Shown here piece by piece: positions 44,176 through 56,772 of a DNA stretch of 58,132 nucleotides. A program made the position numbers and the translations under genes. Where the stretch lies: positions 1-58,132 of the forward strand of contig JAJYJK010000010.1 in the NCBI GenBank assembly GCA_021789555.1, given 5' to 3'. The DNA is from Nitrospirota bacterium. GTDB lineage: Bacteria > Nitrospirota > Thermodesulfovibrionia > Thermodesulfovibrionales > JdFR-88. Position 1 is the first letter of the stretch; the number at the start of each line of letters is the position of its first letter. The notes beneath the pieces were generated by a model. It saw nothing but the letters and a program-made list of their open reading frames with translations. It did not search any database and had not been told where the DNA came from.

Positions 44176-44207
44176 CCCTTACTGTGTGGAGCCCTTACTG
44201 TGTGGAA
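44176..44207. repeat. 16-bp tandem duplication across the degP stop codon
   Basis: CCCTTACTGTGTGGAG followed by CCCTTACTGTGTGGAA. On the minus strand each copy ends in a TCC-ACA-CAG-TAA string; the first copy read contains the true stop. Confidence 0.88.
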
Positions 44208-45655
44208 ATAGTCACGTAGAAGACCTGGCCCTGCCGGAAAATAAGCAGCAGCACGCTCTGGGCCTTTCCGATCTTGGCGGCCTCCTCCAGATATTCCTTC
44301 ATGTCGCTTATCTTCTTGTGATTTACCTCCATAATGACGTCACCCGTATTGAGGACATCCTGGGCCGGGCTGCCTTCGGCCACCTGGGTGACGATCACGC
44401 CATTGATCCTGGCGGGCAGGCCAAGGCTGCTTCTGGCCGCCGGGGTTATGTCCTGCACATCGACTCCGCTCAAGGCATTCTCCAGGGCGGGTTTCTCCGC
44501 CCGGGCCGTCTCCCTGGGCTGTTCGACAATCTTCACGCGAAGTGTGATCTGTTTGCCCTCCCTTATCACCGTCATGGGCACGACGGCGCCCGGTTGCGTG
44601 TTGGCCACCATGTTTCTCAACTGGTTCGGGTCCTCGACGGTCTTGCCGTTGTACTCGACGATAAAGTCGCCCCGCTCCATGCCGGCCTTCTGCGCGGGGC
44701 TGCCCTCGGTGAAATCGGCGACCAGGGCGCCCTTTCCGCTCTTCAGGCCGAACTGTTTTCTAAGCTCCGTATTGACCGGCTGTATCCATACGCCAAGCCA
44801 GCCGCGGACCACCCGGCCCGTCTTGATAAGCTCGTTCATGACGACCTTCGCCATGTCGCTGGGGATTGCAAATCCGATGCCCTGGTAGCCCCCCGTGGTG
44901 CTGAAGATGGCGGTGTTTATGCCCACCAGCTCGCCTTTGGCGTTTACGAGCGCGCCGCCCGAGTTGCCCGGGTTTATGGCCGCGTCCGTCTGAATGAAGT
45001 CCTCGTAGGCCGCGATGCCGACATTCGCCCTTCCCACTGCGCTTACTATGCCCGAGGTGACCGTCCTGGTCAGGCCGAAGGGGCTTCCAATCGCCAGGAC
45101 GGTGTCGCCCGCCCTGAGCTTGTCGGAATCCCCCCACCTGATTGCGGGCAGACCGGTCGCCTTTATCTTTACGACGGCCAGGTCCGTTTTTGCGTCCGCG
45201 CCGATGACCTTGCCCCTGTAAGAGTTCTGGCCGATGGTGACGGTTATCTTCTGCGCCCCCTTAACCACATGGTTGTTGGTCAGTATGATCCCGTTGGGGT
45301 CCACGATGACGCCGGAGCCAAGGCTCATCTGCCTCTGTTCGCGCGGCTCCTCCGGGAGCTGATTGCCGAAGAAGCGCCGGAAAAACGGGTCGTTGAAGAA
45401 GGGGTTTGACACCCCTGGCGTCTTTACAATGCTGACGGTCGATATGTTCACAACCGAGGGTTTCACGGCCGCCGCCAGCTCCGCCATCGCATTGCTCATC
45501 TTTGTAAGGGTCTGCACGGCCTGGTCCGAAATCTTGTACTCCTGGCTGTACCCTTTTGTATTTATTCCGATGGTGGAGGACAGGACCAGGCCCACGACAA
45601 GCCCAATCGTTATAAGGCCCGCTGCCGCAATAAAATACTTCGTCCTTGATTTCAC
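44195..45655 (-). CDS. degP: DegP/HtrA-type periplasmic serine protease with two PDZ domains
   Basis: 486 residues from GTG 45655, which has GAGGAGG eight bases upstream; longer frames begin in a non-coding stretch. N-terminal signal anchor (FIAAAGLITIGLVVGLVL), then trypsin-like protease: His in ILTNNHVVKGA, Asp in AKTDLAVVKI, Ser in INPGNSGGALV. PDZ1 (~280-375) and PDZ2 (~395-485) follow. DegP degrades or holds misfolded envelope proteins. The motif MSLGSGVIVDPNGI is typical. It is a single-gene unit with its own terminator. Confidence 0.95.
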   Translation of the reverse strand: MKSRTKYFIAAAGLITIGLVVGLVLSSTIGINTKGYSQEYKISDQAVQTLTKMSNAMAELAAAVKPSVVNISTVSIVKTPGVSNPFFNDPFFRRFFGNQLPEEPREQRQMSLGSGVIVDPNGIILTNNHVVKGAQKITVTIGQNSYRGKVIGADAKTDLAVVKIKATGLPAIRWGDSDKLRAGDTVLAIGSPFGLTRTVTSGIVSAVGRANVGIAAYEDFIQTDAAINPGNSGGALVNAKGELVGINTAIFSTTGGYQGIGFAIPSDMAKVVMNELIKTGRVVRGWLGVWIQPVNTELRKQFGLKSGKGALVADFTEGSPAQKAGMERGDFIVEYNGKTVEDPNQLRNMVANTQPGAVVPMTVIREGKQITLRVKIVEQPRETARAEKPALENALSGVDVQDITPAARSSLGLPARINGVIVTQVAEGSPAQDVLNTGDVIMEVNHKKISDMKEYLEEAAKIGKAQSVLLLIFRQGQVFYVTISTQ

Positions 45656-45760
45656 GCGAATAGCCTCCTCGTGCCGGGTAAATTGGATTGGTCTGCTTTT
45701 CAATTTCAATTCTATCACAGAAAATAAAATATAAATTTGAATATAGTATGAAGATATTCT

Positions 45761-45784
45761 ATGGGCTTCGCCCCATGCCCCGCC
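45761..45784. repeat. Hairpin repeat, second copy
   Basis: ATGGGCTTCGCCCCATGCCC, inverse copy of the element at 10771-10794, in the gap upstream of degP. Confidence 0.5.
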
Positions 45785-45786
45785 AG

Positions 45787-45818
45787 CCCGCATTCATGAA
45801 AGCCCGTATTTATGAAAG
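45787..45818. repeat. 16-bp tandem duplication across the stop of the kinase-like gene
   Basis: CCCGCATTCATGAAAG followed by CCCGTATTTATGAAAG; on the minus strand each holds CTTTCAT, and the first copy read includes the TAG/TAA-side stop of the gene ending at 45810. Confidence 0.8.
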
Positions 45819-50227: not shown

Positions 50228-50256
50228 ATGACAGGTTTTCCAAAAGCCAATATAAT
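50228..50256 (+). promoter_or_regulatory. Promoter of the proteasome-like gene
   Basis: ATGACA (50228-50233), 17-bp spacer, TATAAT (50251-50256), about 60 nt before ATG 50320. Confidence 0.65.
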
Positions 50257-50319: not shown

Positions 50320-51126
50320 ATGAGGGCTTTGAGAATAAAAAGCATATTCATAATCATCTTTCTTGTCCCGTCGACCGCCTTTGCAACCTCCATCGTGGCC
50401 GTGAGAAATACCGATGAGGTGGTGATAGGCGCGGACAGCAGCACGACCCTGACCCGCATGGACGGCGGCGCGGGGGCTCCAAAGAGGATGGAGAAATGCA
50501 AAATCGTGCAGGCGGGAGACGGAGAGGTCTTTTTTGCCGCTGCCGGGCTTGCAGGCATCGGACCGGCCAGGATGCCCGGACGCATCTATCCCGAGTTCGA
50601 TCTGAAGAAGCTTATTGTCAGGGGGCTTGAGGGCAAGGGGAGGATCAAGGGCAAGGTCGATAACCTGGAGAAGATGCTCGTTGCCAATCTCTCGCAGATT
50701 GCGGAAAAGGCGCGAAAGGACAACCCCGCCTTTTTCACGGGAAAATTCGCCGAATATCCGCTTTTTACCATCATAATTGCCGGCCTGGACGACGGAAAGC
50801 CCGTACTCATGGTGAGGACATTCAAGCTGAATGTCTCACCGTCCGGGCCCTCGTTCGATATCGCCCGCTTTGCCTGCCCGGGTGATTGCCGCACGCCTTC
50901 TATCACCATAGTCGCGGGGGAAACCGGGGGGATCAGACGGTATCTCCGGCAGAATGCGGGGCTGCCGTCCAAGGCCGATTCAGTAACCTTTGTCCGAAGC
51001 CTGGTGGAATTTGAAATCTCGAAATCCCCTGCTTCCGTGGGGCCGCCTGTCGATATCCTGCGCCTGACCGGAAACGGCGGGCAGTGGGTCCAGAAAAAAT
51101 CCATCTGCCCGGACATCCGAAGATAG
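50320..51126 (+). CDS. Exported proteasome/HslV-like Ntn-hydrolase
   Basis: 268 residues. A signal peptide (MRALRIKSIFIIIFLVPST) ends with the AFA-TS site. Cleavage would leave TSIVAVRNTDEVVIGADSST, which is the proteasome beta/HslV start: Thr1, then Asp at mature position 17 in GADSS, and Lys at 33 in GAPKRMEKC, exactly the numbering of the proteasome Thr1/Asp17/Lys33 centre. More of the fold is seen in VFFAAAGLAG (strand after the Lys), FTIIIAGLDDGKPVLMV and SVGPPVDILRLTG near the C terminus. In known proteasomes Thr1 is freed by autocleavage; here signal peptidase could do it. Protease activity and substrate are unproven. Confidence 0.78.
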   Translation: MRALRIKSIFIIIFLVPSTAFATSIVAVRNTDEVVIGADSSTTLTRMDGGAGAPKRMEKCKIVQAGDGEVFFAAAGLAGIGPARMPGRIYPEFDLKKLIVRGLEGKGRIKGKVDNLEKMLVANLSQIAEKARKDNPAFFTGKFAEYPLFTIIIAGLDDGKPVLMVRTFKLNVSPSGPSFDIARFACPGDCRTPSITIVAGETGGIRRYLRQNAGLPSKADSVTFVRSLVEFEISKSPASVGPPVDILRLTGNGGQWVQKKSICPDIRR

Positions 51127-52822: not shown

Positions 52823-54124
52823 TTAGTCCTGGATGTGGCACTTGTTGCAAAGCGAGTGCTGAAAGCGCGAAAATTTGCTTGCGGGCATATCGTAGTACGC
52901 CCTGCTGGTCTCGGCGGACGTGCGCCCCAGCGGGTCCCCGGTGGTGTCGATTCCCGGCCAGACAGTTTTGCCTTCCTGCGAGGCGGTTATGACGGTCTGG
53001 CTCGCGGTGAACCGAAGACCATAGATCCAGCCGGAAGCGTGCGCCCTGTGACAGGTAAGGCACATGACATTGGCGCTGCCGTCCGGGCCACGGAGGTACG
53101 AATCGTCATTTTTCGCATGGGATTTCAGGACGGCGTAGTCGGCTGTCCCCTCCTCAAACGGCACCAGCGAAAGAAATGAAGCGGCCTCGGAGCCCTGGTC
53201 GTCGCCGGAGCCGCTATACATGTTGTAATTTTTTGCCAGATTGCGCAGCTTCACGTCATCGCCGGCCGGATGAGACTGCTTCGGGCTCAGATACGACGTG
53301 TGGCAGTTGGCGCACCATTCGGACATCCCGGAGCCGTAGGCCACGCGGGTCTGCGTCAAACTCTCGGACCTGTTGTAGACGGAAGGCGCCACCGCAGCCG
53401 GCGAGTTGGCCATGAACGGTTTTGAAGCGCCGTCCGGCTGATATCCCGCGCCCCCAAGGAGCCTGTAGACCCCAACCGGACAGTCCGTTGTCGGATCGGC
53501 GCTGGTATCATATGAACCGGAAGCGCAAATCTTCGGCCCCTCCGTGGTGATCGTGCCGTCGACGTTCCTCCGGTAGGTCCCGTGAGGGTCGTGGCAGCTT
53601 GTGCATGTAAGACTCCCGGAGGGGAATGCCCCTCCGGGCGCATACAAATATATCGGACTGGGATCATACCCGTAATCTGCGGCGACTATATCGTGGCCGT
53701 GCGTGTAGCCGGAGTCATGGGGATAATTTTTATTGAGCCAGCCGAAATCCCCGCCCGGCGTGAGCTGCTTTGGGGGTATCCCGGCCGGCATCTCGTTGGC
53801 CGGGGTGCTTATGAAATAGCCCGTCGGCCCCACCAGGCCCGCTTTCTGATGGCACATGAGGCATGTGGAACCCGGGTCGGACCCCAGCAGCATGTATTGA
53901 GATGCCGCCGCGGTCTGGTTGCCGATTCCCCCCTGCGGATGTATGATATGGCAGCCGTCACAGCTGCCCGTTCCCCCGTTATGGAACAACTGCAGCTGCC
54001 CAGTCGGGCCGGTGTCGCCGCCCAGGGCATGCCCGGCGCCCGCGGCAAACATCAACCAGACAAAAAGAGCCGACAACCACGTTGCTTTCTTGCGGAACAT
54101 CCTTCCAAAACCCTGTGGTTGCAT
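52823..54124 (-). CDS. Six-heme c-type cytochrome
   Basis: 433 residues (ATG 54124; ATG 54100 is an alternative within the signal peptide). Signal peptide ATWLSALFVWLMFAAGAG. Six CxxCH heme sites: CDGCH, CLMCH, CTSCH, CANCH, CLTCH, CNKCH. Additional free His residues could serve as axial ligands. Sequence between heme sites, for example GLVGPTGYFISTPANEMP and PKQSHPAGDD, is typical of doubled-CXXCH-type proteins that carry periplasmic electrons. No quinol oxidase gene is adjacent. Confidence 0.92.
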   Translation of the reverse strand: MQPQGFGRMFRKKATWLSALFVWLMFAAGAGHALGGDTGPTGQLQLFHNGGTGSCDGCHIIHPQGGIGNQTAAASQYMLLGSDPGSTCLMCHQKAGLVGPTGYFISTPANEMPAGIPPKQLTPGGDFGWLNKNYPHDSGYTHGHDIVAADYGYDPSPIYLYAPGGAFPSGSLTCTSCHDPHGTYRRNVDGTITTEGPKICASGSYDTSADPTTDCPVGVYRLLGGAGYQPDGASKPFMANSPAAVAPSVYNRSESLTQTRVAYGSGMSEWCANCHTSYLSPKQSHPAGDDVKLRNLAKNYNMYSGSGDDQGSEAASFLSLVPFEEGTADYAVLKSHAKNDDSYLRGPDGSANVMCLTCHRAHASGWIYGLRFTASQTVITASQEGKTVWPGIDTTGDPLGRTSAETSRAYYDMPASKFSRFQHSLCNKCHIQD

Positions 54125-54428: not shown

Positions 54429-54989
54429 GTGCTCGGGGGTTTTAATAAAAAGCGCATCGCCGGCGCCTGGATCGCCTGCCTTTTCGTCCTCGTCCTGCAC
54501 TCGCCCGCCTCTGCCCTTGAGGCCGATATCATCGGATTGTGCTTCTCGCCCGGCGGCGGCTGTACGGACCTGGCGGTAAAAGAGATAGACCAGGCGAGGA
54601 AGGACGTCCGGGTGATGGCCTACAGCTTTACGTCCGCGCCCTTAGGCAAGGCGCTGATCAGGGCAAGAAGGAGGGGGGTGGACGTGGAGGTAATCATCGA
54701 CCGCCAGAAGGCCACCGGCCGTTATTCGGAGGTGAGGTTCTTCCGGAACCAGCGGATACCCGTCTACCTCGACTCCCGTGAGGAGCTGATGCACGACAAG
54801 GTGATGGTCATCGATTCCCGGATAGTCATCACCGGCAGTTTCAACTGGACCAGGGCGGCGGAGTTTTATAATGCGGAAAACCTGCTTGTGATCAGCTCAC
54901 CGGAGCTGGCCGGGCGGTATCTGCGAAACTGGTATCTCCACGCGAGGCACTCGGTCCTGCTTGCGCCGCCCGGCAGCAGCTTTTGGTAA
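54429..54989 (+). CDS. Phospholipase D-family nuclease, exported
   Basis: 186 residues from GTG 54429. A signal peptide (IAGAWIACLFVLVLHSPASA) is followed by a single HKD domain: ELMHDKVMVIDSRIVITGSF with NW, i.e. the HxKx4Dx6GSxxN motif. One HKD per chain means it acts as a dimer, as in the Nuc endonuclease. It likely cuts DNA in the periplasm. The promoter leaves no leader. Confidence 0.88.
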   Translation: MLGGFNKKRIAGAWIACLFVLVLHSPASALEADIIGLCFSPGGGCTDLAVKEIDQARKDVRVMAYSFTSAPLGKALIRARRRGVDVEVIIDRQKATGRYSEVRFFRNQRIPVYLDSREELMHDKVMVIDSRIVITGSFNWTRAAEFYNAENLLVISSPELAGRYLRNWYLHARHSVLLAPPGSSFW

Positions 54990-55099: not shown

Positions 55100-56431
55100 T
55101 TAAAGGTTGTAGCCGGATTCCTCGTGCTGGGAGAGGTCGAGGCCCAGCTCTTCCTCGCTCTCCGAGACCCTCAACCCTATCGTTGCGTCGATGAGTTTCA
55201 AGATGATATAAGTGACCAGGCCCGACCATACGAGCGTCGCGCCGCAGGCCTCGAACTGGATGATGACCTGGTGCGCGTTGCCGTAGAGGAGGCCCCTGCC
55301 GGCGGGGTTTGCCAGGGGCGAGGCGAAGATGCCGGTTGCGATTGCGCCCCAGAAGCCGCCAAGCCCGTGGACTCCGACCACGTCAAGGGAGTCGTCATAG
55401 CCCAGTTTGGGTCTGAGGTTGACCGCCGTATAGCATATGACCCCGGCGATTGCGCCCACGGCGATTGCGCCCATCGGCGTGATGAAGCCGGCCGTCGGCG
55501 TCACGGCGACCAGGCCCGCCACGGCGCCCGACGCGGCCCCGAGCACCGTGGGTCTGCCCTTGTGGGCCCATTCGGCAAACGCCCATCCCAGGGCCGCGGC
55601 GGCCGTTGCGGTGTTCGTCGTGACGAAGGCCAGGGCGGCCAGCCCCCCCGAGGTGATGGCGCTGCCCGCGTTGAAGCCAAACCACCCAAACCACAGCAGC
55701 GACGCGCCCAGCACCGTGTAGCCGATGTTGTGGGGCAGCATCGGGACCTCCAGATACCCCTTGCGCTTCCCGAGGACAATCGCGGCTACCAGCGCCGCGA
55801 TGCCCGCGTTCAGATGGACGACCGTGCCCCCCGCGAAGTCAAGGGCGCCCAGCGTGTAAAGCCAGCCGTGGGGGTTCCATACCCAGTGGGCAATCGGCGC
55901 ATATACAAAGGTGGACCACAGAATAATGAATACCGTGTAGGCGGAGAACTTCATCCGCTCCGCAAAGGCGCCCGTGATGAGGGCGGGCGTGATGACTGCA
56001 AACATCATCTGAAAGGACATAAATGCCAGATGCGGCACCGTGGGCGAGCCCAGGGGGGAGCTCTCCTGCCCCACTCCGTTTAAGCCAAACCAGCTCAGAT
56101 TGCCGATTATGCCGTGAATGCTCGGCCCAAAGGCCAGCGAGTAGCCCCACAGCACCCAGGTTACGCTCACCAGGCAGAGCGCCCAAAAACTGTGCATTAT
56201 GGTGCCAAGGACGTTTTTCCTCCTCACCATCCCGCCGTAGAAGAAGCCCAGCGCGGGCGTCATAAGGAGCACCAGCGCGGCGGAGACCAGCAGCCAGGCG
56301 GTGTCCCCGCTGTTTATCTTGCTTGTCGCCGGGGCCGCGTCCGCATAAACGGCCGGGGCCGAAAACGAAAAAAAGGCCATCGCAGCCGAAAGTGAAAAAA
56401 GCAGCTTCGAAACCGTCCTGATCCTCTTCAC
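55100..56431 (-). CDS. amtB: Ammonium transporter AmtB
   Basis: 443 residues from GTG 56431 (AAGGAGG upstream). Signal peptide (MKRIRTVSKLLFSLSAAMAF) then 11 helices. The pore His pair is in GGTVVHLNAG and VVGVHGLGGFWG; the Phe gate is in AFMSFQMMFAVITPALITGA. The C-terminal tail ends ESEEELGLDLSQHEESGYN, a GlnK-contact tail. It is co-transcribed with glnK, 2 nt away. Confidence 0.97.
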   Translation of the reverse strand: MKRIRTVSKLLFSLSAAMAFFSFSAPAVYADAAPATSKINSGDTAWLLVSAALVLLMTPALGFFYGGMVRRKNVLGTIMHSFWALCLVSVTWVLWGYSLAFGPSIHGIIGNLSWFGLNGVGQESSPLGSPTVPHLAFMSFQMMFAVITPALITGAFAERMKFSAYTVFIILWSTFVYAPIAHWVWNPHGWLYTLGALDFAGGTVVHLNAGIAALVAAIVLGKRKGYLEVPMLPHNIGYTVLGASLLWFGWFGFNAGSAITSGGLAALAFVTTNTATAAAALGWAFAEWAHKGRPTVLGAASGAVAGLVAVTPTAGFITPMGAIAVGAIAGVICYTAVNLRPKLGYDDSLDVVGVHGLGGFWGAIATGIFASPLANPAGRGLLYGNAHQVIIQFEACGATLVWSGLVTYIILKLIDATIGLRVSESEEELGLDLSQHEESGYNL

Positions 56432-56433
56432 CT

Positions 56434-56772
56434 CTATATCGCCTCCTTGCCTCTCTCGCCAGTCCTTATCCTTATGACGTCGGAAATCTCATAGACGAAT
56501 ATCTTGCCGTCTCCTATCTCGCCGGTGCGGGCCGCCGTCTGAATGGCGGCAAGCACCTCCTCCAGCTTCTCATCCGGGGTCGCAATCTCCAGCTTTATCT
56601 TCGGCAGAAACCGGACCTCGTATTCCACCCCCCTGTAAACCTCCGTGTGCCCCTTCTGGCGTCCGAAACCCTTCGCCTCGGTGAGGGTGACACCGTGGAC
56701 GTCTATCGCCATCAGGGCCTTTTGCACTGCGTCAAGCCGCGTGTGCTTGATAACAGCCTGCACCATCTTCAT
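56434..56772 (-). CDS. glnK: Nitrogen regulatory P-II protein GlnK
   Basis: 112 residues, standard. KGFGRQKGHTEVYRGVEYEV holds the T-loop with the uridylylated Tyr position (GVEY); ATP motif TGEIGDGKIFV and IRTGERGKEAI at the C terminus. GlnK senses 2-oxoglutarate/ATP and blocks AmtB when nitrogen is plentiful. GAAGGAGG lies upstream of the ATG. Confidence 0.97.
   Translation of the reverse strand: MKMVQAVIKHTRLDAVQKALMAIDVHGVTLTEAKGFGRQKGHTEVYRGVEYEVRFLPKIKLEIATPDEKLEEVLAAIQTAARTGEIGDGKIFVYEISDVIRIRTGERGKEAI

Follow-up and report, generated by a model that had tools for sequence, protein, structure and literature searches.

A proteasome-like hydrolase of Nitrospirota with a predicted signal peptide directly ahead of its N-terminal threonine

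Analysis of a 58,132-nucleotide stretch of DNA from a Nitrospirota bacterium (the window) revealed a gene for a proteasome-like protein in which the predicted catalytic threonine, Thr1, lies directly behind a predicted signal peptidase site, an arrangement that is, as far as we found, new for a proteasome-type chain. The most probable reading of the evidence presented here is that the protein is an extracytoplasmic Thr-type N-terminal nucleophile (Ntn) hydrolase activated by signal peptidase I.

The open reading frame proposed in the first-pass annotation of the window was borne out in both extent and strand (Table 1), and the encoded precursor starts with MRALRIKSIFIIIFLVPSTAFA, followed by TSIVAVRNTDEVVIGADSSTT. 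A search for homologues in the whole order (176 genomes) identified family members in eight genomes including the window's own, distributed over three families and five genera, and the seven other members, all of the same order, share 57-68% identity with the window protein. In pairs with the window gene, dN (0.21-0.31) was well below dS (0.66-3.25), which marks the ORF as a genuine gene subject to purifying selection. A promoter match just upstream suggests, from sequence, independent transcription of the gene; two promoter-like sites scoring at least 9/12 were found against 0.7 expected by chance. Since both of the nearest flanking genes run in the opposite direction, and given this upstream promoter, the gene probably stands alone.

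Table 1. Coordinates of the hydrolase gene and its features in the window
Feature	Position	Strand	Basis
Gene, exported (predicted) proteasome-like Ntn hydrolase, 268 aa	50320..51126	+	ORF and conservation
Predicted signal peptide, 22 aa, MRALRIKSIFIIIFLVPSTAFA, invariant A-x-A at -3/-1	50320..50385	+	Composition and conservation
Predicted mature chain, 246 aa, proteasome beta-type fold	50386..51123	+	Models
Thr1 codon (T23 of precursor), invariant	50386..50388	+	Aligns with Thr1 of 20S beta subunits
Asp17 codon (D39 of precursor), invariant	50434..50436	+	Family alignment
K55 of precursor ("Lys33" of the first-pass annotation), not conserved	50482..50484	+	Family alignment
Codon for Cys38 (C60), invariant, lacking in cytoplasmic relatives	50497..50499	+	Alignments
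Lys39 codon (K61), invariant, probable counterpart of proteasome/HslV Lys33	50500..50502	+	Alignments, model
CPGDC (C186, C190), invariant, lacking in cytoplasmic relatives	50875..50889	+	Alignments
GPPVDILRL strand motif, corresponding to GGPIDVxxI of group-II-like relatives	51040..51066	+	Alignments
Cys241 codon (C263), invariant	51106..51108	+	Alignments
Sigma-70-like promoter ATGACA-17-TATAAT, 11/12, just upstream of gene	50228..50256	+	Consensus match only

We then analysed the leader, which was called a signal peptide on the basis of its composition and conservation. It has an n-region with a charge of +3, a hydrophobic core, SIFIIIFLV (mean Kyte-Doolittle value of 3.42 across nine residues), and ends in AFA directly before Thr, in agreement with the earlier proposal that cutting after AFA leaves Thr at mature position 1. 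The sequence S-x-A-x-A↓T-S-[IV]-V (the arrow marks the predicted cut) is kept in all eight members, with the hydrophobic core varying. Features of a signal peptidase I substrate (n-region charge, h-region and AxA at -3/-1) were present in all eight and in a more distant protein, L017, and signal peptidase I is itself encoded in the genome (186.8 bits). No Met adjoins Thr1, and this residue could therefore be exposed only by proteolysis.

Four cysteines, at mature positions 38, 164, 168 and 241, are invariant in the family, and the corresponding columns hold no Cys in cytoplasmic relatives, except for one near the end of L043. From the alignments, these cysteines would suit an oxidising compartment. 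Searches of the genome gave no match to DsbB or VKOR and only a marginal DsbA-like protein, so disulfide formation in the window protein is unsure; the cysteines may instead form a metal site.

Propeptide cleavage exposes Thr1 of proteasome beta subunits and of many HslV proteins, and beta propeptides usually carry Gly at position -1. The leader could thus be a hydrophobic propeptide that removes itself, leaving the protein in the cytoplasm, and the Thr and Lys required for such a reaction are present. Residue -1, however, is Ala in every member, each leader has the complete tripartite make-up of a signal peptide together with the AxA motif, and the invariant cysteines fit an oxidising compartment. 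According to the main text of Fuchs, Alva and Lupas 2021 (PMC8665760), which describes 22 new proteasome-like homologues, propeptides are found in most beta and HslV subunits and in no other homologue. We consider self-removal of the leader in the cytoplasm to be quite improbable.

Inspection of the remaining catalytic residues gave a mixed outcome for the first-pass annotation, which had placed Asp at mature position 17 and Lys at 33 by proteasome and HslV numbering and had proposed a search for homologues that conserve both along with the leader and Thr1. The leader, Thr1 and Asp17 are indeed conserved in all eight members across the five genera and three families, as is the motif VIGADSxTTL. 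Position 33, in contrast, reads K, G, G, T, G, E, E and E across the eight members; as the lysine occurs only in the window protein, its match to Lys33 numbering is a coincidence, and we rejected it as the catalytic lysine. The invariant lysines are at mature positions 37 and 39 (K59 and K61), within KCKIVQ. Lys39 aligns with Lys33 of the HslV from the same genome and with the lysine conserved among cytoplasmic relatives, and in the model it directly precedes strand S3, after an S2-S3 loop about six residues longer than that of HslV. Alignment and model together indicate that Lys39 is the probable functional equivalent of proteasome/HslV Lys33. The combination of Thr1, Asp17 and a Lys33 counterpart seen in the proteasome-like family (PMC8665760) is thus found here by way of Lys39 and not at position 33 itself.

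For the beta-subunit residues Asp166 and Ser169, the sequence of the window protein offers no obvious equivalent. Together with the precedent of proteasome alpha subunits, which have lost activity, this could be taken to mean that the protein is exported but catalytically dead, keeping the fold for binding. The invariance of Thr1, Asp17 and Lys39, and of the placement of Thr1 exactly behind the cleavage site, would be needless in a dead protein, and the probability we give to this explanation is very small.

The Ntn fold suggested by the first-pass annotation is confirmed by structure prediction. Two AlphaFold2 models were generated without templates, one from six sequences (pLDDT 66, pTM 0.71) and one of the mature chain from 13 sequences (pLDDT 72, pTM 0.75); confidence is middling, with the S2-S3 loop and the stretch ahead of H1 below 50 pLDDT. 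Both show a proteasome-beta-type Ntn fold covering the whole mature chain. Among the Foldseek matches listed, all were proteasome subunits (E values of roughly 1e-8 to 1e-7), and VIA-align gave best Z scores against 20S subunits of 14.8 and 14.6 for models 1 and 2, respectively, over about 165-170 residues at 3-4 Å, with mature residue 1 superposing on residue 1 of 20S beta subunits. In model 2, the strands and helices H1-H4 occur in the expected order, and the chain ends with a strand (231-236) followed by a brief tail of low confidence.

Sequence searches detected this relationship less directly. The window protein alone scored 13.4 bits against the Pfam Proteasome profile (PF00227), under the cut-off of 22.4, and yielded nothing in the PDB, where a profile of the family gave only weak matches of the Thr1 region to Pre3 beta1 (E 0.07). 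Nothing meaningful was retrieved from NCBIfam or PHROGs, and a single-protein search of the genome contigs returned one locus. L017, which comes from a different family within the phylum, scored 27.0 bits against PF00227, above the same cut-off, and matched the window family in a profile comparison with 96.9% probability over 223 columns. The tie of the window family to Pfam Proteasome is therefore transitive, through L017.

Comparison with known systems places the protein within the proteasome-type group while setting it apart from each described type. It shares the fold, the N-terminal Thr1, Asp17 and the lysine before S3 with the 20S beta subunit (MEROPS T1), but has a predicted signal peptide instead of a propeptide, a longer S2-S3 loop, the CPGDC motif and no AAA+ partner, and alone it falls under the Pfam cut-off. 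HslV shows the same Thr1/Asp17/Lys pattern, but the window gene is not beside hslU, and its product is predicted to be exported and has 246 residues as opposed to about 175. An origin as an HslV paralogue was rejected, as only the first 25 residues align with HslV by profile and ordinary HslV and HslU are encoded side by side elsewhere in the same genome; no hslU was seen next to the hydrolase gene in the window or in homologous loci. HslV and the window gene are the only matches to PF00227 in the genome, and hence no alpha-like gene was seen. Anbu, a cytoplasmic protein, is as close in fold as the beta subunits (Z of 14.1 to 5nyw and 13.8 to 5lox for model 2), but the model of the window protein lacks the C-terminal helix H5.

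The probable nearest kin of the window family, judged by the C-terminal motif, are the group II proteasome-like homologues (WPH, PMI and others) as described in the main text of PMC8665760. The window protein shares this motif with PMI-like proteins but lacks long H3/H4 insertions, so that it may or may not belong to the PMI subfamilies. Relatives ending in VGGPIDVxxI..W(I/V)xRK occur in Nitrospirota and in viral contigs. L015, L016, L018, L026 and relatives on seven viral contigs start with Met-Ser or Met-Thr where the start is seen, implying that their nucleophile would be freed by Met removal in the cytoplasm, and most of them end in GGPID[VI]...W[IV]x[RK]K; from their sequences, the relatives other than L017 look cytoplasmic. 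The window family has a leader, unlike the group-II-like relatives, of which L017 is the exception. Contigs classed as viral (L040, L041, L043, L044, L045 and L046) encode proteasome-like proteins with Met-Thr/Ser starts and mostly a GGPID-type ending. Two Nitrospirota loci (L053:340-1662 and L054:316-1662) encode proteasome-like proteins of ~440 aa that contain long insertions and end in VGGPxDVAVI. No member of the window protein's family was found in viral contigs, plasmids gave no match to the window protein or L017, and phage records none to L017.

The leader of L017, the second and distant proteasome-like protein (also at L039:3763-4677 and in L025), ends in ALA↓T. The source of L017 is not certain, since its genome (G106) has 6% contamination. 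In the tree, in which branches are long, L017 is placed apart from the window family. We therefore did not retain a single origin of secretion: the tree requires two changes, but the long branches weaken that conclusion. A broader proposal is that proteasome-like hydrolases were exported more than once, in the window family and in L017, with signal peptidase replacing Met removal or propeptide cleavage and giving rise to ATP-independent periplasmic Thr proteases, possibly assembled as compartmentalised rings. We regard this as rather unlikely.

There is precedent for an extracytoplasmic N-terminal nucleophile. In some exported choloylglycine hydrolases of the Cys type, signal-peptide removal exposes the nucleophile; these enzymes resemble the window protein in its predicted export and N-terminal nucleophile, with no sequence link to it. 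PvdQ and penicillin G acylase are likewise exported Ntn hydrolases with an N-terminal nucleophile and no sequence link to the window protein, but they self-cleave, at or after export (PMC5474475). The novelty claimed in the first-pass annotation thus stands, as far as we found, within the proteasome-type fold but not for Ntn hydrolases overall. Neither the main text of PMC8665760 nor the Anbu paper (PMC5666114) contains 'signal peptide', 'periplasm' or 'secret', and no later reports of exported proteasome-like proteins were found in the open-access literature.

The genomic neighbourhood was also considered as a guide to function, but no operon partner is conserved in homologous loci beyond the congener, and a functional partner could not be assigned in this way; a multihaem cytochrome and an ABC transporter adjoin the gene in two f13 genomes only. 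Within the window, a multihaem cytochrome c-like gene with many CxxCH motifs (52823-54124, minus strand) also adjoins the homologue in the congener (L033), and an exported phospholipase D-like protein with an HDKVMVID motif (54429-54989, plus strand) is conserved in the congener too. An ammonium transporter gene at 55100-56772 (minus strand) adjoins a PII (GlnB-like) gene. A DegP/HtrA-like periplasmic serine protease is encoded ~4.5 kb upstream (44195-45793, minus strand), and this linkage was not seen in the homologous loci examined.

The nature of the substrate bears on a further alternative, namely that the protein is exported and cut but acts as an amidase, acylase or protein ligase with a narrow substrate, and not as a general peptidase. 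An extracytoplasmic protein is not expected to have an ATP-driven unfoldase, and conserved partner genes are lacking; Ntn hydrolases are also diverse, and connectase is a ligase with a proteasome-like fold, as noted in the main text of PMC8665760. Nothing positive points to any such substrate, however, and helices H1-H4, which build the ring in proteasomes, are predicted in the window protein. A narrow substrate is a real possibility, though we hold it to be the less probable case.

Taken together, we favour activation by signal peptidase I outside the cytoplasm. We infer that Sec would carry the precursor across the inner membrane and that signal peptidase I would cut after the invariant AxA. 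The new N-terminus would be Thr1, with its hydroxyl as the nucleophile and its amine as the base, aided by Asp17 and Lys39, so that leader removal and enzyme activation would be one event. The product would most likely be a periplasmic or released Thr peptidase/amidase without an ATPase, perhaps stabilised by disulfides among the four invariant cysteines.

Described proteasome relatives have been treated as cytoplasmic. If the window protein is exported, the proteasome fold would work without ATP-driven unfoldases in another compartment, and a general export protease could serve as an activation switch. The family would also provide a clean test case, in which a single cut makes or breaks the active site.
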